Program-made: the position numbers and the translations under genes
Shown: positions 13,442 to 34,655 of the stretch, in pieces
Layout of the letters: each line of letters begins with the position of its first letter
Position numbering within the stretch: position 1 is the first letter of the stretch
Source: Spirochaetales bacterium
GTDB taxonomy: Bacteria; Spirochaetota; Spirochaetia; Sphaerochaetales; Sphaerochaetaceae
Direction: 5' to 3'
Length of the DNA stretch: 42,480 nt
Assembly (NCBI GenBank): GCA_018433865.1
Contig: JAHDQJ010000028.1
Location: forward strand, 1 to 42,480
The notes under the pieces: model-generated
Told to the model about the DNA's origin: nothing
Databases searched by the model: none
Seen by the model: only the letters and a program-made list of their open reading frames with translations

Positions 13442-13522
13442 CCACCATCGGGGGGATGGCGGCCCACCGCTGCCGTCCTCCCCTCTTTCGTGCACGGGAA
13501 TCATCACCTACCGGAGGCTTTC

Positions 13523-16396
13523 ATGAAATCCATCAGCGTGGACATCGAATCGTATTCCTCAATCAACCTCGCCAAGAGTGGAGTCTACCGCTATTGCGAG
13601 GCCTCCGACTTCGAGATCCTCCTGTTCGGCTACAGCGTCGATGGCGGACCGGTGCAGGTGGTCGATCTCGCCCGGGGAGAGAGGATACCTCGAGAAATTA
13701 TCGAAGCGCTTACCGATCCCAGCGTGGGAAAGTGGGCGTTCAACGCTGCCTTCGAGCGCATCTGCCTCTCGCGGTTCCTCGGAATGCCGACCGGCACGTA
13801 TCTCGATCCGTCCTCCTGGCGATGCACGATGGTATGGTCGGCGTACCTGGGGCTGCCGCTGTCGCTCATGGGCGTCGGTACGGTGCTGAAGCTCGAAAAG
13901 AGGAAGCTCGCCTCAGGCAAGGACCTGATCAGGTATTTCTGCACTCCGTGCGCGCCCACAGTCGCAAACGGCAAGCGGACACGCAACCACCCCTCCCATG
14001 CTCCCGACAAATGGAAGCTGTTCATCGAGTACAACAAGCGCGACGTGGAAGTCGAGCTCGCCATAGACAAACGCCTTTCAACCTATCCCGTTCCCGATGC
14101 CATCTGGGATGAGTACCACCTGGACCAACGCATCAACGACCGGGGTGTATTGATCGACAGGGGACTCGTGCGGAGTGCCATCGAGATGGACCGTACATCC
14201 CGTCAGGAGCTGATGGCGCGCATGAAGGCCATCACCGACCTGGAGAATCCCAACTCGGTGTCGCAGGTGAAGACCTGGCTTGCCGACAACGGCCTCGAGG
14301 TCGATTCGCTGGGCAAGAAGGATGTGATCTCCGCTTTGGATGGTGCTCCGCGTGAGATCAGGGAAGTGCTCGAGCTCAGGTTGCAGCTGGCAAAGTCGTC
14401 GGTGAAAAAGTACCAGGCGATGGAGCATGCCGTCTGCTGTGATGGCCGTGCACGGGGCATGTTCCAGTTCTACGGGGCATCACGAACCGGGCGATGGTCG
14501 GGAAGATTGATACAGATGCAGAACCTTCGGCGCAACAGCATCGAGGACCTCGCCGAAGCCCGGACCCTGGTGAAGAGCGGTGACTACGAGGCGGTGAAGC
14601 TGCTCTATGGCGATGTGCCCGATACGCTTTCCCAGCTGGTAAGGACAGCCTTCATTCCCAGGAAAGGATATCGCTTCATCGTCTCCGACTTCTCGGCGAT
14701 CGAAGCGAGGGTGCTATCGTGGCTCGCCGGAGAGACCTGGCGCATGGATATCTTCGCCGAGGATGGGGACATCTACTGTGCCACAGCCTCGCGCATGTTC
14801 CACTGCGAGGTCACCAAATACGGGGAGAACGGACACCTTCGTCAAAAAGGCAAGCAGGCCGAGCTCGCCTGTATCGCAGAAGGCCAGCTGGTACTTACCA
14901 ATCAAGGACTGGTTCCAATCGAACAGGTCACAACCAGTCATCTCCTTTGGGACGGAGAGGATTGGGTAACGCACGAGGGCGTGATCGACAAGGGAATTGG
15001 GGAGGCAATCACCTATGGGGGACTTACAGCAACAGCAGACCATCTTGTGTGGATCGAGGGGGAACCGGAGCCGGTACACCTTGGAATCGCCGCCGCCCGC
15101 GGCTCACGTCTCGTACAAACCGGAGATGGTGGGAAAGCGATACGGTTGGGTCCGGATAGTGTCACCGGAGAAACGGTGGAATGCCAGGAGGAACCATTGC
15201 TATGTGCTCACCCAGTGCGAAGGATGCCGCAGCATTCAGTGGCAGCTCCTATCGAACCTGACCCAGGGCAAGTCCAAGGGATGCCAGCGGTGCTCCCAGC
15301 CGAGGGCGATTCCGCTATGGCTCGATCGGAGACTCACGGCCGCGAAGCAGCGATGCGAAAATCCGAAGGACGGTGGGTATCACAATTACGGGGCACGGGG
15401 CATACGTTTCGCGTTTTCCAGCGTGAAGGAGGCAGGGTTGTACCTTCTGGGAGAATTCGGACTGCCGGACAAGGAGATGGAGATAGACCGCATCGACAAC
15501 GACAAGGACTACGAAGCTGGCAATTTGCGGTTTGTCACCCACTCGGAAAACAACCAAAACAAACGCAACACCGTCCTGAGCGAATTCAAACAGGAGTACT
15601 GGCCATACGCAAGACCGGTAGTCATTCGAAAGCTCTCTGCCGGTGTGAGCAGGACGGGCATCATCGAGGATGCCATGAAGGCTGTCACGGAGAGAAGGAA
15701 AAACTGGCGGATAATCAGCGCACGGTTGGACTTTATGACATTCGTAATGCCGGAGAGCATCACCGTTTTACCGTATCGGGCATCCTCGTGCACAACTGCG
15801 GATACGGCGGATCAGTCGGAGCCCTCAAGGCAATGGGAGCGCTCGAGTCCGGCATGACCGAGGATGAGCTCAAGCCCCTGGTGGATGCCTGGCGCCAGTC
15901 CAACCCTAACATCGTCAAGCTCTGGTGGGATGTGGACAAAGCAGCCATGGATGCGGTCAGGGAGGGAATCTCCACCGAGATCCACAATCTCACGTTTTCC
16001 TACGAGGGCAACGGGCTGTTCATCACCCTCCCCTCTGGCAGGAGACTCGCCTACGTAAGGCCGAAAATCGAAACCAACGACTTCGGTAGCGATTGCATCA
16101 CCTACGAGGGAACGGGATCCACCAAGAAGTGGGAGCGCATCGGGACATTTGGTGGAAAGTTGGTGGAAAATCTTTGTCAGAGCATCAGCCGCGACTTGCT
16201 GTGCCACGCCATGCAGCAGCTCGAGGCGTGTGGCTGCCGCATCGTGATGCACATCCACGACGAGGTGGTCATCGAGGCTCCCAAGAACATGGACGTGCAA
16301 GACGTCTGCCACCGCATGAGCAGCACCCCGCCATGGGCACAGGGGTTGCATCTCAACGCGGACGGCTACGAGACCGATTTCTACAGGAAGGATTGA
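13523..16396 (+). CDS. Family A DNA polymerase interrupted by an intein
   Basis: The start ATG 13523 follows CGGAGG. The precursor is 957 residues; removal of the 309-residue intein leaves 648, the usual size for this phage polymerase. The N-terminus holds a 3'-5' exonuclease: SVDIESYS (Exo I), FNAAFERICLS (Exo II) and YNKRDVEVEL (Exo III). The polymerase domain shows GASRTGRWSGRLIQMQNL, motif A IVSDFSAIEARVLSW, motif B split as KQAELA/CGYGGSVGALK, and motif C MHIHDEVVIE. It replicates the phage genome. The intein lies inside the nucleotide-binding O-helix, so the unspliced protein should be inactive. A second reading frame inside the intein encodes an HNH nuclease (separate entry). Confidence 0.93.
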   Translation: MKSISVDIESYSSINLAKSGVYRYCEASDFEILLFGYSVDGGPVQVVDLARGERIPREIIEALTDPSVGKWAFNAAFERICLSRFLGMPTGTYLDPSSWRCTMVWSAYLGLPLSLMGVGTVLKLEKRKLASGKDLIRYFCTPCAPTVANGKRTRNHPSHAPDKWKLFIEYNKRDVEVELAIDKRLSTYPVPDAIWDEYHLDQRINDRGVLIDRGLVRSAIEMDRTSRQELMARMKAITDLENPNSVSQVKTWLADNGLEVDSLGKKDVISALDGAPREIREVLELRLQLAKSSVKKYQAMEHAVCCDGRARGMFQFYGASRTGRWSGRLIQMQNLRRNSIEDLAEARTLVKSGDYEAVKLLYGDVPDTLSQLVRTAFIPRKGYRFIVSDFSAIEARVLSWLAGETWRMDIFAEDGDIYCATASRMFHCEVTKYGENGHLRQKGKQAELACIAEGQLVLTNQGLVPIEQVTTSHLLWDGEDWVTHEGVIDKGIGEAITYGGLTATADHLVWIEGEPEPVHLGIAAARGSRLVQTGDGGKAIRLGPDSVTGETVECQEEPLLCAHPVRRMPQHSVAAPIEPDPGQVQGMPAVLPAEGDSAMARSETHGREAAMRKSEGRWVSQLRGTGHTFRVFQREGGRVVPSGRIRTAGQGDGDRPHRQRQGLRSWQFAVCHPLGKQPKQTQHRPERIQTGVLAIRKTGSHSKALCRCEQDGHHRGCHEGCHGEKEKLADNQRTVGLYDIRNAGEHHRFTVSGILVHNCGYGGSVGALKAMGALESGMTEDELKPLVDAWRQSNPNIVKLWWDVDKAAMDAVREGISTEIHNLTFSYEGNGLFITLPSGRRLAYVRPKIETNDFGSDCITYEGTGSTKKWERIGTFGGKLVENLCQSISRDLLCHAMQQLEACGCRIVMHIHDEVVIEAPKNMDVQDVCHRMSSTPPWAQGLHLNADGYETDFYRKD
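14870..15796 (+). mobile_element. Intein in polymerase motif B (309 residues)
   Basis: The in-frame insertion begins at Cys1 (codon 14870-14872; block A CIAEGQLVLTNQGLVPIEQV). Block B is GLTATADHLVWIE. It ends with block F VGLYDIRNAGEHHRFTV and block G ILVHN, followed by Cys+1 (15797-15799). All residues needed for splicing are visible: Cys1, the block B TxxH pattern, the terminal HN and the Cys nucleophile. The splicing N-part is ~85 residues and the C-part ~30. Between them frame 0 gives ~195 residues rich in Arg, Gly, His and Gln with no recognisable fold. That segment corresponds to the HNH nuclease read in frame +1. The linker is therefore unlikely to be a conventional in-frame endonuclease domain. 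Confidence 0.92.
15126..15857 (+). CDS. HNH homing endonuclease nested out of frame in the intein
   Basis: In the +1 frame relative to the polymerase, MVGKRYGWVRIVS begins a complete phage-type HNH protein. It has a zinc-binding knuckle (CEGC at 31-34, CQRC at 53-56), then RCENPKDGGYHNYGARGIRF (~76-95), and the catalytic HNH-like core DRIDNDKDYEAGNLRF with THSENNQNKRN (121-148). This is the family of free-standing and intron-borne endonucleases seen in phages. It is not the LAGLIDADG type usual in inteins. Homology begins at the Met at 15126, but its GGAG abuts the ATG. An in-frame ATG at 15015 has a well-spaced GGGGAGG (14999-15005) and may be the real start. The frame continues to 15857, through intein blocks F and G and 58 bases of downstream polymerase sequence. 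Recognisable homology fades near 15715. Confidence 0.82.
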   Translation: MVGKRYGWVRIVSPEKRWNARRNHCYVLTQCEGCRSIQWQLLSNLTQGKSKGCQRCSQPRAIPLWLDRRLTAAKQRCENPKDGGYHNYGARGIRFAFSSVKEAGLYLLGEFGLPDKEMEIDRIDNDKDYEAGNLRFVTHSENNQNKRNTVLSEFKQEYWPYARPVVIRKLSAGVSRTGIIEDAMKAVTERRKNWRIISARLDFMTFVMPESITVLPYRASSCTTADTADQSEPSRQWERSSPA

Positions 16397-21738: not shown

Positions 21739-21956
21739 CCGAGGCAAGTATGAGGCATCTGGCGGCTGCGATCATTGAGCGGGCGGTCACCGACTGGCAC
21801 AAGGTGGTATCCCAGCTGGAGGGCAACCCCGATTACGTATATGCATGGGCAACCAAGGACGAGATCGAGCGCTTCTTCGAGAGCGAGTGGTTTGAACTCC
21901 TCTGCGATATCAACCCCGATCTGACCAAGATTCACCTACAGGAGGCAAGCGCATGA
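21735..21956 (+). CDS. Small phage protein, unknown (73 aa)
   Basis: The start ATG 21735 overlaps the helicase stop as ATGA. The product (MTEASMRHLAAAIIERAVTDW, then DEIERFFESEWFELLCDINPDLTK) looks all-helical. Similar short proteins with an AIIERAVxDW start and a FxSEWF segment occur between helicase and DUF1492 genes in related phages, but I know no function. It overlaps the DUF1492 gene by 4 bases, so the three genes are tightly coupled. Confidence 0.7.
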   Translation: MTEASMRHLAAAIIERAVTDWHKVVSQLEGNPDYVYAWATKDEIERFFESEWFELLCDINPDLTKIHLQEASA

Positions 21957-22363
21957 CTACAAAGGAATATCTTTCGCAGGCGTGGTACCTGGACAAGCGC
22001 ATCAGGACCAAGGAACGCCAGCTCGATTGGCTCAGAAGTCATGCCGTCTACGTATCCCCCAAACTCGCCGAAGTGCCCAAGGCTCCGTCGATCCGTCGCT
22101 CTCCTGTGGAGGAGGCGGTGGTACGCATCACAGAGTTGGAGACGGAGATCAACACCGGCATCGCACAGATGATGCGACTCAAGACTGAGATTGCCGATGT
22201 GATCCGAAGTGTCAACAGCATGGAGTGCGAGACGCTGCTGGAGATGCGCTACCTCGCCTTCCTGAGCTGGGACCAGGTGGCAGCCCAGCTGAGCTACAGC
22301 CAGGACTACATCTACCATTTGCACCGGAAGGCGTTGGCGTTGGTGCGGGTTCCAGGGATATGA
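21953..22363 (+). CDS. DUF1492 sigma-like late regulator
   Basis: MTTKEYLSQAWYLDKRIRTKE opens a typical DUF1492 protein, with a coiled-coil middle (ITELETEINTGIAQMMRLKTEI). The C-terminal helix-turn-helix (LLEMRYLAFLSWDQVAAQL, then YSQDYIYHLHRKAL) resembles sigma region 4. Such proteins end the early operon of many siphophages and are thought to turn on the late (packaging and structural) genes. The likely target here is the promoter upstream of the small terminase at 25,554. The following ~1.1 kb has no gene on this strand. Confidence 0.85.
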   Translation: MTTKEYLSQAWYLDKRIRTKERQLDWLRSHAVYVSPKLAEVPKAPSIRRSPVEEAVVRITELETEINTGIAQMMRLKTEIADVIRSVNSMECETLLEMRYLAFLSWDQVAAQLSYSQDYIYHLHRKALALVRVPGI

Positions 22364-22428
22364 ACGTTGGAATATTAGGAAGTAGTGGATATTGCAAGCA
22401 ACCATATTGGGGACAAGCCAAAAAAGGT

Positions 22429-22477
22429 GGAGGCCAGCGGATGGGTGGTTGGGGTGGAGAGGGTTCCGCTGGCCTCC
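22429..22477. repeat. 13-bp perfect inverted repeat with G-rich loop
   Basis: GGAGGCCAGCGGA (22429-22441) is the exact reverse complement of 22465-22477. The 23-base loop reads TGGGTGGTTGGGGTGG then AGAGGGT, five G-runs of two or more. The loop could fold into a two-layer G-quadruplex on top of the stem. There is no T-tract, so it is not an ordinary terminator. Confidence 0.85.
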
Positions 22478-22974
22478 AAGGAAAATCACACGAAAGGAGA
22501 CATGAAAAAACTGTTGCTCTGTCCGCATATATAAGCATGGACCGTGCCAACTCTGGCAAGATGCTGAGAATTTGAAGAAATCGATGAATTCCATATGGAT
22601 TTTGCACGATTGGAAACATCGCCTTCATTCGCTTACCCTCCGGAAGCTCCCGTTTACCTGTGAATATTTGTTACACGGTGCAGAACGTGTGCAACACCTG
22701 CGCAATGTACAAACCGGTTCCCGATAGAGAGGCATCCATACGCGTGCACAGGAAACCCAGGCATCCCATCCAAACTGCCCACGATCGACGTAGTCTCCGT
22801 CCCCGGCTGTATTCCTTTTTCGCCCAGAGGATGCCGTGTTTCGGGAACAAGTCAATTCCCGTGGGAGAAAGCAGGGGTGCGATGGTCATCCAAAGCGCAG
22901 CTCATCCTAGGACAACGCCCAGCCTGTTTGGTAGCGTGTATCCATCCCACCCTGTTCCCCTCACGTCCTTACTT

Positions 22975-23007
22975 GGATGCGCTCTGCCCAGGAACCGGAG
23001 CGCATCC
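22975..23007. repeat. 10-bp perfect hairpin
   Basis: GGATGCGCTC (22975-22984) pairs with GAGCGCATCC (22998-23007) around a 13-base loop. A second pairing, CGTTCCC with GGGAACG (23007-23013 and 23033-23039), follows directly, suggesting a folded RNA or a protein-binding site. There is no T-tract. Confidence 0.7.
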
Positions 23008-23165
23008 GTTCCCACGTTCCAGCCGGAGTGAAGGGAACGTGTGCTGAAACAACCCGTGAAACGTTGGCATATCAGCAATTGCCTTGTATCTGTTCCTATG
23101 TTCCTGAAATATCATTTGGTATGAATACCAGTAATATAGGGGGAGAATACCGGCGCGGCATGAGC

Positions 23166-23196
23166 ATACGCGCATATACACGCGTATAGGGGTTTT
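23166..23196 (+). terminator. Rho-independent terminator-like hairpin
   Basis: ATACGCG (23166-23172) pairs with CGCGTAT (23181-23187), followed by AGGGG and six T. It would end transcripts crossing the non-coding stretch before the LRR cassette. The CGTATAGGGGTTTTTT part resembles the CATATAGGGTTTTTTT element at 19763 and 20009. Confidence 0.6.
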
Positions 23197-23268
23197 TTGG
23201 TGCTTGAGAACACACACAAGAACAGGTGTATGGACTGCTTTCGATGCCCCTGCAACCAAACGTTAAAA

Positions 23269-23363
23269 TATCAGAACATAACAGTTGTGCTCAGTTCGCC
23301 TTGCACGCTACTGTATACTCAGACAAGTCCAATCGGAAGCTCGGGAAATCCTCCCGGGCTTTC
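23269..23363 (+). repeat. Direct repeat flanking the LRR gene, left copy
   Basis: Begins TATCAGAACATAACAGTTG and ends in GGGAAATCCTCCCGGGCTTTC. The right copy at 25033-25129 has the same beginning (one mismatch), the same terminator-like end and the same length. The middle is diverged but keeps TCAGACAAG-like motifs. The LRR gene fills the space between the copies. Confidence 0.75.
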
Positions 23364-23365
23364 TT
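23339..23365 (+). terminator. Terminator in left flanking repeat
   Basis: GCTCGGGA pairs with TCCCGGGC (one G-T pair) around AAATCC-type loop sequence, then TTTCTT. It insulates the LRR promoter from upstream transcription. Confidence 0.65.
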
Positions 23366-23421
23366 GATACGATAAGATTTGCATTCTTGAAAAATAACCC
23401 AAAATTTTGAAGAATTTTAGT

Positions 23422-23450
23422 TTGTTTATTACCGATGCGCGGGATATAAT
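23422..23450 (+). promoter_or_regulatory. Promoter of the LRR gene
   Basis: TTGTTT (23422-23427), 17 bases, then a consensus TATAAT (23445-23450), 44 bases before the start codon. It is in an AT-rich pocket unlike the surrounding phage DNA and needs no phage factor, as expected for a gene expressed in the lysogen. Confidence 0.7.
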
Positions 23451-23494
23451 ACCCCTTGGTATTGTCTGACCTTTTCCACTAATCCGAGGTACAT

Positions 23495-25030
23495 ATGAGA
23501 AACATGAGGGGATCATCTCGCTGCACAAGGGTTGCACTTGTGCTGTTTGTCTTATTGGTTCTGTTGTCATGCGATGTATTCGCCGCCAGCTATGATATTG
23601 CCAAACTCGACAGCAACACCTGCTATATCAGGCACTATCAGGGCCAGGAGGGGGAGTTGGACATTCCCTCAACGATCGATGGATATCGTGTCATCCATAT
23701 CGGCAACCAGGCTTTCAAAGGCAACCGCTCCTTGGCCGGTGTCACCATCCCCGACAGCGTGAAGTCGATCGGAGAGTCGGCGTTCGCATCCTGTCCTTCC
23801 CTGCGCTCCGTCCACATTCCCGGCAGCGTCACCTCCATCGACAAGAAGGCTTTCCAGGATTGCACTTCCCTGGCCAGCATCATCATTCCCAACAGCGTAA
23901 AAACCATTGAAAGGGATGCGTTCTCCGGGTGCACGGCCCTTACTTCAGTGACCCTCCCGGACAATCTCACCACCATACGATACGGCCTTTTCTGCGATTG
24001 TGAATCCCTGGCCGGCATCACCATCCCCGATACCGTCACCACCATCGATGTCAATGCTTTCGCCAGGTGTTCATCCTTAACCGAAATCATCATTCCCGAC
24101 AGAGTCAATTCCATCGGAGAATGGGCTTTCAGCGGATGCGCATCCTTGGCCAGCATCACCATCCCCGCCAGCGTCACGTCCATTGGGGATGGTACGTTCA
24201 TCGGCTGTGAATCGCTGATGAATATCAGGGTCGATCAGAAGAACCCGGTCTTCACGCAAACTCAAGGGGTCCTCTATGACTTGCAAGAGAAAAGCTTGCT
24301 TGTGTATCCGGCGGCCCGCAGGTCCCCTGCGTATGCAATCCCTTATGGAACGCTCCTCATCAAGGAAGCGGCGTTCGCCAACTGCCCCTTCCTGACCACC
24401 GTCACCATCCCCGAAAGCATCATTACCATCGAGAGCAGTGCTTTCCATGGATGCACGTCCCTAGCCAATATCATCATCCCCGCCAGCGTCACATCCATCG
24501 GCAGCATGGCTTTCTCGAATTGCTCCTCCCTTTCCAATATCACCGTCGACCCGAGGAACCCTGCATTCGAGGATATCCGAGGCGTCCTGTTCCAAAGGAA
24601 GCAGAAGTACCTCCACACATATCCAGCGGGAAAGAAGGCTGTGGCTTATTCAGTTCCAGGTGGAACCGTATGCATCCCTGGCTACGCTTTCGCTTATAAC
24701 ACTTCATTGGACAGCATCACCATTCCCGAAGGCGTCACCCGCATCGAGGACATGGCTTTCGCGTTTTGCACCTCACTGAGAAGCATCACGATCCCTGATT
24801 CAGTCACCATGATAGGGAGCTCCCTGTTTTATAAGTGTGACCGCTTGTCGAGAATCGATGTACATGAGAAGAGTCTTGCCTATAGATATTTCCAAAATAC
24901 GGAATATGCGTCACTTCTCACGTCCGGTTCCGCAAGCGCGCCTTCGGCTGTTCCCTATCCCCAACCTGCTCCCGAGGCTCCCGCGGCCCCGGCAGCGGCG
25001 GCTGCTCCTGCTTCCGCGATCTATCGTTGA
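23495..25030 (+). CDS. Secreted BspA/TpLRR-type leucine-rich repeat protein
   Basis: The 511-residue product begins with a signal peptide (hydrophobic VALVLFVLLVLLSCDVFA; C at ~26 could also be a lipoprotein cysteine). About a dozen 23-residue LRR_5 repeats follow, of the form L..ITIPDSVTSIG..AFSGC.S, interrupted twice by longer inserts (NPVFTQTQGVLYD; NPAFEDIRGVLFQ). The C-terminus is Pro/Ala-rich. TpLRR/BspA proteins of spirochaetes and Bacteroidetes are surface-exposed and bind host matrix or other bacteria. A phage would not need it for its own replication. It has a private promoter and terminator and sits between direct repeats, so it is a lysogenic-conversion (moron) gene. Alternatively it is a host gene captured by recombination. 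Confidence 0.88.
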   Translation: MRNMRGSSRCTRVALVLFVLLVLLSCDVFAASYDIAKLDSNTCYIRHYQGQEGELDIPSTIDGYRVIHIGNQAFKGNRSLAGVTIPDSVKSIGESAFASCPSLRSVHIPGSVTSIDKKAFQDCTSLASIIIPNSVKTIERDAFSGCTALTSVTLPDNLTTIRYGLFCDCESLAGITIPDTVTTIDVNAFARCSSLTEIIIPDRVNSIGEWAFSGCASLASITIPASVTSIGDGTFIGCESLMNIRVDQKNPVFTQTQGVLYDLQEKSLLVYPAARRSPAYAIPYGTLLIKEAAFANCPFLTTVTIPESIITIESSAFHGCTSLANIIIPASVTSIGSMAFSNCSSLSNITVDPRNPAFEDIRGVLFQRKQKYLHTYPAGKKAVAYSVPGGTVCIPGYAFAYNTSLDSITIPEGVTRIEDMAFAFCTSLRSITIPDSVTMIGSSLFYKCDRLSRIDVHEKSLAYRYFQNTEYASLLTSGSASAPSAVPYPQPAPEAPAAPAAAAAPASAIYR

Positions 25031-25032
25031 TT

Positions 25033-25129
25033 TATCAGAATATAACAGTTGACAACAGCTTGTCCTTCTCGCTACCCTACCATCAGAGACAAGCAACCAG
25101 GCAGCCCGGGAATTCCTCCCGGGCTTTCC
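25033..25129 (+). repeat. Direct repeat flanking the LRR gene, right copy
   Basis: Begins TATCAGAATATAACAGTTG three bases after the LRR stop codon and ends with GGGAATTCCTCCCGGGCTTTCC. It is the partner of 23269-23363. The ordinary phage gene order (DUF1492, then HNH and TerS) resumes directly after it, as if the LRR cassette had been inserted with duplication of its target. Confidence 0.75.
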
Positions 25130-25131
25130 TT
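25104..25131 (+). terminator. Terminator after the LRR gene
   Basis: GCCCGGGA (25104-25111) pairs perfectly with TCCCGGGC (25117-25124) around ATTCC, followed by TTTCCTTTT. A strong rho-independent terminator closing the LRR transcription unit. Confidence 0.8.
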
Positions 25132-25152
25132 TTGCCCCAAGGAGTACCCCCC

Positions 25153-26267: not shown

Positions 26268-27431
26268 ATGAAACACCACCTCACCTCCGAGAGTGTCTGC
26301 TGCGGTCATCCGGACAAGCTGTGCGACCATATCGCCGACTCGATCCTCGATGCCCACCTCGCCATCGACGAGCACTCGCGCGTGGCGTGCGAGGTCATGG
26401 CCACCAGGGGCCGCATCATCGTCGCCGGGGAGATCACCAGCAGGGGCTCGGTCAATGTGCGAAAGACGGTGCGGGAGGCACTTGCCCGTTGCGGTTACGA
26501 CCCGAGGGACTATGCGATCAGCGTGCATCTGCACACCCAGAGTCCCGATATCGCCAGCGGCGTGGACCGGGCCCTCGAGGTCAGGGATGCCGAGGGTATT
26601 CATGATGAACTGGGAGCCGGGGACCAGGGCACGGTGTACGGCTATGCCACAAACGAGACGCCGAGTGGTATCCCGCTGCCGCTCGAGCTGGCGCATCGCA
26701 TCTGCATGGGACTGGACGAGTGTCGATTGAGCGGAACCATACGCGGCATCCGTAGCGACGGCAAGGCGCAGGTCTCCATCGGGTACGAGGACGGAAAGCC
26801 CAAGCGGGTGGCCGCGATCGTCGTCTCGGTGCAGCATGCACGTGACAAGGACTTGGACACTCTCAAAGGGGAGATCATCAAGAAGGTGCTCTACCCTGTT
26901 TTCGAGAATTCCCCGTTCGATGCGCACACCCGCATCCTCATCAATCCCTCCGGCCGGTTCGTCGAGGGGGGTCCCGCCGCGGACACCGGCCTGACCGGAC
27001 GCAAGATCATGGTGGACACCTACGGGGGTCTCGCCCTGCACGGAGGGGGTGCCTTCAGTGGCAAGGATGCGACCAAGGTCGACCGGAGCGGAGCCTACAT
27101 GGCACGCATGGTGGCCAAGCACATCGTGGCCGCCGAATTGGCTGAACGCTGTGAAGTGGCCATCTCGTATGCCATCGGGAAGGCCGAGCCGGTCGCGGTG
27201 GATGTACACACTTTCGCCACCGGAACCCATGACGACGAGCAGCTTGCCCAGGCCGTGCGTTCGGTCTTCAGCCTCAAGCCACGGGACATCATCGAGACTC
27301 TGGGACTTCGCAGTCCCATCTACAACCTCACCTCCTGCTACGGCCATTTCGGCAGTGCGCTGTTCACATGGGAACAGGTGAGCGAGCGGCATGTAGAGGC
27401 ACTCAGGGGCGAACTGGAACAGCACGACTGA
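26268..27431 (+). CDS. metK: S-adenosylmethionine synthetase, phage-encoded
   Basis: A full-length (387 aa) MetK. The ATP/methionine site is TSESVCCGHPDKLCDHIADSI at the N-terminus, with GAGDQGTVYGYATNET at ~124-139, GGGAFSGKDATKVDRSGAYMAR (P-loop-like and K+ site) and FATGTHDDEQL. All signature segments are intact, so it should make SAM from methionine and ATP. It lies 13 bases before a DNA methyltransferase that consumes SAM. Together they would keep methylation going during infection even if host SAM falls. Start ATG 26268 follows AAAGGA. Confidence 0.93.
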   Translation: MKHHLTSESVCCGHPDKLCDHIADSILDAHLAIDEHSRVACEVMATRGRIIVAGEITSRGSVNVRKTVREALARCGYDPRDYAISVHLHTQSPDIASGVDRALEVRDAEGIHDELGAGDQGTVYGYATNETPSGIPLPLELAHRICMGLDECRLSGTIRGIRSDGKAQVSIGYEDGKPKRVAAIVVSVQHARDKDLDTLKGEIIKKVLYPVFENSPFDAHTRILINPSGRFVEGGPAADTGLTGRKIMVDTYGGLALHGGGAFSGKDATKVDRSGAYMARMVAKHIVAAELAERCEVAISYAIGKAEPVAVDVHTFATGTHDDEQLAQAVRSVFSLKPRDIIETLGLRSPIYNLTSCYGHFGSALFTWEQVSERHVEALRGELEQHD

Positions 27432-33326: not shown

Positions 33327-34655
33327 ATGGGACTCTTATCCAAGCTTGTCACCAGAACGCGTGACAAGCCGCAAAACAGGACCAGCGGGTCCTCATACAG
33401 CTTCCTGTTCGGGGGCTCGACATCCGGCAAGGCGGTGAACGAACGCTCATCGATGCAGATGACGGCAGTCTATGCCTGCGTGCGCATCCTTGCCGAGGCG
33501 ATCGCGGGGTTGCCGCTGCATCTGTATCGGCATGGGGAGAACTCGAGCAAGCAGAAGGCGAAGGACCATCCGCTCTACACCCTGGTCCACTGCGAGCCCA
33601 ACGCGGAGATGACCAGTTTCGTCTTCCGCGAGACGATGATGACCCACCTGCTGCTCTGGGGCAATGCGTACGCCCAGATCATCCGAAACGGCAAGGGTCA
33701 GGTGGCCGCGCTCTACCCCCTGATGCCCAACCGCATGCAGGTCGACCGTGACAAGAACGGGAGGCTCTACTACCAGTACACCACCAGCGCCGAGGATGCG
33801 CCCACCATGCAGGGTACCTCGGTGGTGCTCGATGCATCGGAGGTGCTGCACATCCCGGGCCTGGGCTTCGACGGGTTGGTGGGCTACTCGCCGATCGCGA
33901 TGGCCAAGAACGCCATCGGCATGGCAATCGCCTGCGAGGAGTACGGGGCGAAGTTCTTCGCAAACGGGGCTGCCCCAAGCGGCGTGCTCGAGCATCCGGG
34001 AACGGTCAAGGACCCCACACGCCTCCGCGATACGTGGCAGGGCCAGTTCGGCGGCTCGGCGAATTCGCACAAGGTTGCGGTGCTCGAGGAGGGGATGAAA
34101 TACACACCGATTTCGATCTCACCCGAGCAAGCGCAGTTTCTGCAGACGCGCAAGTTCCAGATCAACGAGATCGCACGCATCTTCCGCGTCCCTCCACACA
34201 TGGTGGGGGACCTGGAGAAGTCCTCGTTCAGCAACATCGAGCAACAATCGTTGGAGTTCGTCAAGTACACCCTCGACCCGTGGGTGATCCGTTGGGAGCA
34301 GGCGCTCTCGCGTGCACTGTTGGCATCCGATGAGAAGCAGACGCATTTCTTCCGCTTCAACGTCGAGGGACTGCTGCGCGGCGACTACCAGAGCCGCATG
34401 ACGGGCTACGCCACCGCGCGCCAGAACGGTTGGATGAGCGCCAACGACATCCGCTCGCTGGAAGACATGGATCTCATCACCGATGCAGACGGAGGAAACC
34501 TCTATCTGATCAACGGAAACATGCTCCCCCTATCCCGGGCTGGGGCATTCGCAGACAAGGTTACGGACACATCCCAGGAGGAGACCGATGAAAAACAAGA
34601 AGTTCTGGCAATGGAAAAACCAGGGCGAAGAAGAAGGCAGAGCGAGAATCCTTGA
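33327..34655 (+). CDS. HK97-family portal protein
   Basis: SMQMTAVYACVRILAEAIAGLPLHLYRH, HPLYTLVHCEPNAEMTSFVF, LLLWGNAYAQIIRNGKG and FSNIEQQSLEFVKYTLDPWV are the HK97 gp3-type portal signatures; the length (442) is usual. It forms the dodecameric ring for DNA entry and tail joining. The C-terminal tail (DEKQEVLAMEKPGRRRRQ) is read through the start of the protease gene, overlapping it by 68 bases, so the two are coupled. Confidence 0.93.
   Translation: MGLLSKLVTRTRDKPQNRTSGSSYSFLFGGSTSGKAVNERSSMQMTAVYACVRILAEAIAGLPLHLYRHGENSSKQKAKDHPLYTLVHCEPNAEMTSFVFRETMMTHLLLWGNAYAQIIRNGKGQVAALYPLMPNRMQVDRDKNGRLYYQYTTSAEDAPTMQGTSVVLDASEVLHIPGLGFDGLVGYSPIAMAKNAIGMAIACEEYGAKFFANGAAPSGVLEHPGTVKDPTRLRDTWQGQFGGSANSHKVAVLEEGMKYTPISISPEQAQFLQTRKFQINEIARIFRVPPHMVGDLEKSSFSNIEQQSLEFVKYTLDPWVIRWEQALSRALLASDEKQTHFFRFNVEGLLRGDYQSRMTGYATARQNGWMSANDIRSLEDMDLITDADGGNLYLINGNMLPLSRAGAFADKVTDTSQEETDEKQEVLAMEKPGRRRRQSENP

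Follow-up and report, generated by a model that had tools for sequence, protein, structure and literature searches.

The window, that is, the whole stretch of DNA that we analysed (contig C48, 42,480 bases), lies within a 2.9-Mb genome and holds a prophage with genes for a helicase, an ssDNA-binding protein, HNH, terminase, portal, protease, capsid and tail. Between a DUF1492 transcription regulator gene and a conserved segment that precedes the HNH and terminase genes lies a stretch that we call the slot. No recognised protein gene was found from 22363 to 23494, and the claim of an earlier note that 22364-23260 is free of genes was borne out for recognisable protein genes, as Pfam and PHROGs were silent there and 22706-23250 had no codon-position bias. 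The open reading frames at 22660-23031 (plus strand), 22969-23259 (minus strand) and 21932-22594 (minus strand) had no Pfam or PHROGs match, and the frame at 22225-22575 (plus strand), which was searched against PHROGs only, had no match there. The features of the region are:

21953 to 22363, plus strand: DUF1492 transcription regulator gene, the left border of the slot (PF07374, 8e-06; phrog_36 transcriptional regulator, 6.4e-22)
about 22523 to 22420, minus strand: predicted small RNA of about 104-105 nt (covariance-model match; fold z-score)
22428 to 22478, minus strand: terminator hairpin with a 14-bp stem and a C-rich loop (inverted-repeat scan, fold, covariation)
22487 to 22504, minus strand: putative seed region CAUGUCUCCUUUCGUGUG with anti-Shine-Dalgarno CUCC (conserved in the copies)
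22505 to 22522, minus strand: conserved 5' core ACAGAGCAACAGUUUUUU (near-invariant in the alignment; 0/18 differences from the second phage)
22535 to 22550, minus strand: sigma-54-type promoter, TTGGCACG-N4-ATGC (conservation of TGGCA and TGC in the copies; 0/12 promoter columns differ from chromosomal copy L053)
22659 to 22675, minus strand: enhancer-like palindrome UAS2, TGTAACAAATATTCACA, at -125 from the first promoter base
22689 to 22705, minus strand: enhancer-like palindrome UAS1, TTGCGCAGGTGTTGCAC, at -155 from the first promoter base
22706 to 23007, no strand assigned: filler of the slot, no function recognised (identity with the second phage 77%; no codon-position bias)
23008 to 23250, plus strand: dispersed element B (ends in a possible terminator, 23166-23187, and a T-run; copies elsewhere)
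23256 to 23365, plus strand: conserved right border of the slot, a candidate promoter-leader segment before HNH (related-phage comparison)

Nine prophage loci in this and related genomes (L038-L042 and L044-L047) have the DUF1492 gene and the conserved segment with other material of about 0.7-2.6 kb between them, and 23 distinct IMG/VR contigs have both borders. In three of these contigs (L214, L215 and L216) the slot is empty and the segment follows the regulator almost directly. Related phages carry different cargo in the slot, or none. We conclude that the stretch is probably a slot for cargo (moron) genes in a temperate phage whose hosts are Sphaerochaetaceae-like spirochaetes, and our best explanation has a small RNA (sRNA) gene as its cargo. 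The conserved segment is duplicated in the window, with a second, diverged copy at about 25021-25132, and the two copies flank a BspA-type leucine-rich-repeat gene (23495-25030), as if recombination between copies exchanged cargo genes. The border segment is also repeated at L046, as it is around the BspA-type gene. At L047, L048 and L051, RloA/RloB-type ATPase pairs and an AbiEi-like regulator (assigned by eye) lie in the same slot or beside element B, and thus the slot may carry phage-defence genes. Elsewhere in the window, the DNA polymerase A gene at 13490-16396 has what seems by eye to be an intein-like interruption (CIAEGQLVLTN ... HHRFTVSGILVHN), with a Pfam polymerase match on one side of the insertion only. 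What appears to be an S-adenosylmethionine synthetase gene (metK-like, 26268-27431) adjoins a ParB/DNA-methylase-like gene, both recognised by eye from the translation.

The right-hand part of the stretch, 22706-23250, is absent from most related phages. It looks like slot filler followed by dispersed element B, with no sign of coding. Compared with the second phage, substitutions fell evenly over the codon positions, both in the filler (22/98, 23/97 and 22/98) and in element B (17, 17 and 19 of 81), whereas the same comparison of the DUF1492 gene gave 9, 35 and 12 of 137, a clear codon-position bias. The open frames of up to 123 amino acids within the stretch could be taken for the remains of a protein gene, as the earlier note had proposed, but without a family match or a codon-position bias like that of DUF1492 a decayed gene is very improbable. 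Element B is 78% identical in the second phage and has copies at L044, L048-L051, L068 and L069, one of its carriers being a genome of another family (G089). It stands directly before the conserved segment in L204, L205, L206, L212, L213 and L217, and it is a putative boundary or terminator element.

The earlier note had also suggested that the stretch could be a structured phage RNA of the large, ornate type. The length of sequence without recognised protein genes and the several inverted repeats would suit a GOLLD/ROOL-type RNA or another single structured RNA that fills the stretch. Rfam holds GOLLD and ROOL families as well as a Qrr model, but with Rfam 15 nothing in the window reached a gathering score, and six host loci gave no match either; the stretch itself had only a chance-level match (E 3.2). 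Furthermore, the majority of related phages do not have the stretch, and the region is made up of modules that differ in origin. A single large RNA is thus extremely improbable, and what stands of the proposal is a structured non-coding RNA of about 105 nt on the minus strand. Of the inverted repeats that had been listed, the one at 22429-22477 was confirmed as a perfect 14-bp stem, 22428-22441 with 22465-22478, of which about 0.001 would be expected in a stretch of this size by our own arithmetic. The repeat at 22975-23007 exists as a 10-bp pair (22975-22984 with 22998-23007), but about 0.2 such pairs are expected by the same arithmetic and, by eye, it is not fully paired in the second phage. 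Those at 23007-23039 and 23117-23130 are 7-8 bp long, below the scan minimum of 10, and thus absent from its list; by eye they are not full pairs in the second phage. The T6 terminator at 23166-23196 is present, but the scan found 1 where 1.5 were expected in shuffles, and its covariation in a comparative fold of 12 copies was weak, with both bases altered in 1 of the 9 pairs. The RNA that had been expected to end near 23196 is instead predicted to end in the hairpin at 22428-22478 on the minus strand. No origin-like repeats were found and no direct-repeat families were listed.

The minus strand of the left-hand part very probably carries an RNA gene of a Sphaerochaetaceae sRNA family with sigma-54-type promoters. 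We built a covariance model on 19 chromosomal copies, leaving the window copy out, and it matched the window at 22421-22550 on the minus strand with 113.5 bits (E 9.9e-22), and the fold of 22421-22525 on that strand had a z-score of -4.12. With the same model the chromosomal copy in the window's own genome scored 130.7 bits. The 5' end of the RNA would lie near 22523, as placed from the promoter, and the 3' end at the T-run at 22425-22420. Two palindromes of 17 nt each precede the promoter, and therefore the whole unit was taken to run from 22705 to 22420. The segment 22420-22552 recurs in many host-family genomes when the stretch is compared by blast with 101 genomes. The copies share one order on the minus strand: TTGGCACG-N4-TTGC, which we take to be the sigma-54 -24/-12 promoter pattern, about 12 nt, ACAGAGCAACAG, a U-run, CAUACCUCCUUUAGUG or a variant of it, the hairpin and a T-run. 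A plus-strand short open reading frame (MKKLLLC..) on the hairpin segment, which was first suggested by a conserved ATG after GGAG, was dropped because every copy has the minus-strand sigma-54-type promoter and terminator.

The 69 loci that were aligned gave 88 matches, of which 82 are distinct; all 82 of these have TGGCA, and 81 have TGC at -12. The 12-pair terminator helix is 97.0% paired in the distinct copies and each of its 12 pairs is changed on both sides somewhere, so that covariation in the hairpin at 22428-22478 is strong. Over the whole sRNA structure, cells with changes on both sides numbered 245, compared with 61.5 in shuffles and 21-39 with the structure slid, in an alignment that was fitted to the model and thus favours the structure. 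Upstream of the promoter, the palindromes lie at -155 and -125 in L053, L054 and the phage copy, and at -154 and -124 in L052. Similar palindromes stand before many other copies, though not before all, mostly singly and at other offsets, and 37 of the 88 copies match the two palindrome patterns. The gene rpoN is present in the window's genome, but it does not discriminate since 136 of the 139 host-family genomes have it.

The sRNA was found by covariance-model search in 119 of these 139 genomes of the host's bacterial family, and in 64 of the 75 that have a completeness of at least 90% and a contamination of at most 5%. A phylum-wide draw of 296 genomes gave 11 matches, all in the host's family, although the large draws use stricter filters and may miss weak relatives outside it. 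An exact pattern of the sRNA core occurred in 12 stretches of the genome collection, all from spirochaetes, including Sphaerochaeta and Sphaerochaetaceae. The chromosomal copy in the window's genome (L131) lies between a rhomboid-like and an rlmE/ftsJ-like gene, both named by eye. Genome G007 has a second, diverged copy (L128, 1569-1701, minus strand), which is not at the rhomboid/rlmE site but has a GGDEF-like gene and small helix-turn-helix-like genes nearby. Some genomes have rows of two to four copies. In the rows at L055-L058, L060, L061 and L064 the copies differ in seed class (CAUACCUCC, CAAACCUCC, CAUACUCCUCC or CAACCUCC), which suggests a division of labour between the paralogues. The family was not found in the literature on Sphaerochaeta small RNAs or on sigma-54/RpoN sRNAs of spirochaetes or phages, in a search that covered few subscription journals. 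The matches for sigma54/RpoN and sRNA with spirochaete or phage terms, as far as the accessible parts of these sources tell, dealt mostly with Borrelia, with one Leptospira review and one on Campylobacter, and the family may be described elsewhere.

The sRNA gene sits inside the phage genome with phage genes on both sides, and it recurs at the same place in a second phage, IMG/VR contig 3300042281_000316 (L204, also L169). The gene there is 89% identical, scores 117.9 bits with the covariance model, and stands in the same gene order as in the window (DUF1492, sRNA, filler, element B, conserved segment, HNH). A 17-base pattern found 30 stretches in IMG/VR, of which this phage alone had a strong model match; a longer exact pattern had 0 matches in IMG/VR, and blast against phage and plasmid collections gave none. 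L182 (E 0.0008) was considered as a further copy and rejected, as the promoter elements are absent; it is excluded from the CUCC counts. In total, 1 of the 23 IMG/VR contigs and 0 of the 9 genome prophage loci that have the slot contain the sRNA, which thus appears to be occasional cargo. The DNA itself shows homology to the host family, the promoter, the palindrome spacing, the terminator covariation and the presence in a second phage. On these grounds the cargo is, with good probability, a host sRNA gene copied in full, with palindromes, sigma-54-type promoter, an RNA of about 104 nt and terminator. The gene was apparently captured from the bacterial host together with its promoter. In a tree of the copies that did not include the second phage, the phage copy grouped with L017 (support 91), but the deeper nodes, which would place the donor lineage, are weak.

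It is possible that such a gene is only a piece of host chromosome acquired by chance, drifting and useless to the phage. The rarity of the sRNA among the IMG/VR contigs with the slot fits this reading, as do a seed flank that is altered only in the window copy among 82 and the fact that no target was found. The distribution of differences argues against it. Of 132 columns compared with L053, 23 differ in the phage copy, and none of these is among the 57 constrained columns, which cover promoter, 5' core and stem (P 4e-7, with the 57 columns chosen after the alignment was viewed); some of this constraint may date from before the capture. When the two phages are compared, there are no differences in UAS2 (0/17), the -24 element (0/8), the 5' core or the T-run (0/8), and the stem arms had 0/14 and 1/14, the single change giving a G-U pair, so that 27 of 28 stem positions are unchanged. 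By contrast, UAS1 had 3/17, the seed 5/18, and the remaining positions 25/175. We thus consider a useless passenger rather unlikely.

The seed combines an invariant motif with variable flanks. All 83 distinct copies, with that of the second phage among them, retain CUCC. The flank CAUGUCUCC is unique to the window copy among the 82 distinct copies, and the other 81 have CAUACCUCC or other variants. The two seed changes in the window copy preserve a hairpin of 6 bp, G-U pairs included, around CUCCUUUC, and the second phage retains ACCUCC. A family-wide seed hairpin was not accepted, since a stem of at least 6 bp around CUCC was found in 21 of 83 copies against about 10% of shuffles. The departure of the window flank from the 81 other copies, and from the second phage, could be decay, and as there is only one such seed sequence, retargeting and drift are not separable. 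Another reading is that the phage RNA or its enhancer sites act as a sponge or decoy, competing for targets or for the enhancer-binding protein and damping the host sRNA. The same core, the same enhancer-like sites at equal spacing and the altered seed flanks are consistent with this, but CUCC and the C-rich loop are kept, which speaks for a working anti-Shine-Dalgarno RNA, and we regard a sponge as quite unlikely.

Site searches and a duplex scan gave no convincing target. In six genomes, sRNA loci included, contiguous sites for the host seed with an adjacent AUG were depleted (31 against 100 control matches). This speaks against a simple long duplex, and any pairing would need to be short or to contain bulges. 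A gapped target pattern had a single site, C43:9976. Among 36 start regions of the window, hand-picked from the list of open reading frames, the best duplex was at 34588 (head maturation protease), with -31.6 kcal/mol. This score was equalled by 0.35% of random stretches, or about 0.13 expected in 36, and the observed seed change ranked 4th of 16 for this site, which is a weak lead. Hfq was not found in the window's genome.

If the gene works as its parts suggest, host RpoN, together with an enhancer-binding protein, would transcribe it while the phage is a prophage. Translation would then be blocked in the manner of the Listeria sRNA LhrC, through pairing of Shine-Dalgarno regions with the exposed anti-Shine-Dalgarno element CUCCUU and the C-rich loop, and the altered seed flanks would shift the target set of the phage copy. 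By analogy, we give repression of translation through Shine-Dalgarno pairing an about even chance. More tentative, and on balance doubtful, is the full scenario that temperate phages captured the host sRNA gene with its promoter and enhancer sites and changed its seed flanks, and that the prophage thereby listens to a host sigma-54 signal and aims the RNA at targets of its own, in the host or in the phage.

Parts of this arrangement resemble known systems. In Listeria, CU-rich motifs in the single-stranded parts and the terminator loop of LhrC bind the G-rich start region of lapB mRNA (PMC4132741). LhrC is likewise a multicopy sRNA, and its CU-rich motifs, which can cover Shine-Dalgarno regions, have their counterpart in the CUCC seed and the C-rich terminator loop of the window sRNA. 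LhrC needs the two-component system LisRK (PMC4132741), whereas here there are a sigma-54-type promoter and enhancer-like palindromes. A relation in sequence to LhrC was checked only through Rfam, with no match. The Qrr sRNAs of Vibrio also occur as several paralogues in each genome, and sigma-54 and a response regulator that binds enhancers drive their expression; however, they act with Hfq on quorum-sensing mRNAs (PMC3352281), while here Hfq was not found and the anti-Shine-Dalgarno seed differs. Neither the window nor the six host loci had a match to any Rfam family, Qrr included. The sRNAs svsR (PMC12803456), DicF and AgvB (PMC12197685) are also carried by prophages and likely act on host genes. 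Unlike them, the window sRNA can be recognised as a diverged copy of an sRNA gene that is conserved in the host family, and it has that gene's sigma-54-type promoter and enhancer-like sites; we met no case of a captured host sRNA with its own promoter in the parts of these two papers that we had.

A conserved, often multicopy sRNA family with sigma-54-type promoters thus extends across a whole spirochaete family and has no match in Rfam 15, and two phages have copies of their own in which the control region is intact. Provided that they are transcribed, these RNAs would offer a simple handle on post-transcriptional control in spirochaetes in which Hfq was not found, and also on how phages tap host signalling. 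Should capture and retargeting prove true, the phage copy would be a phage-owned paralogue plugged into the regulatory RNA network of its host.
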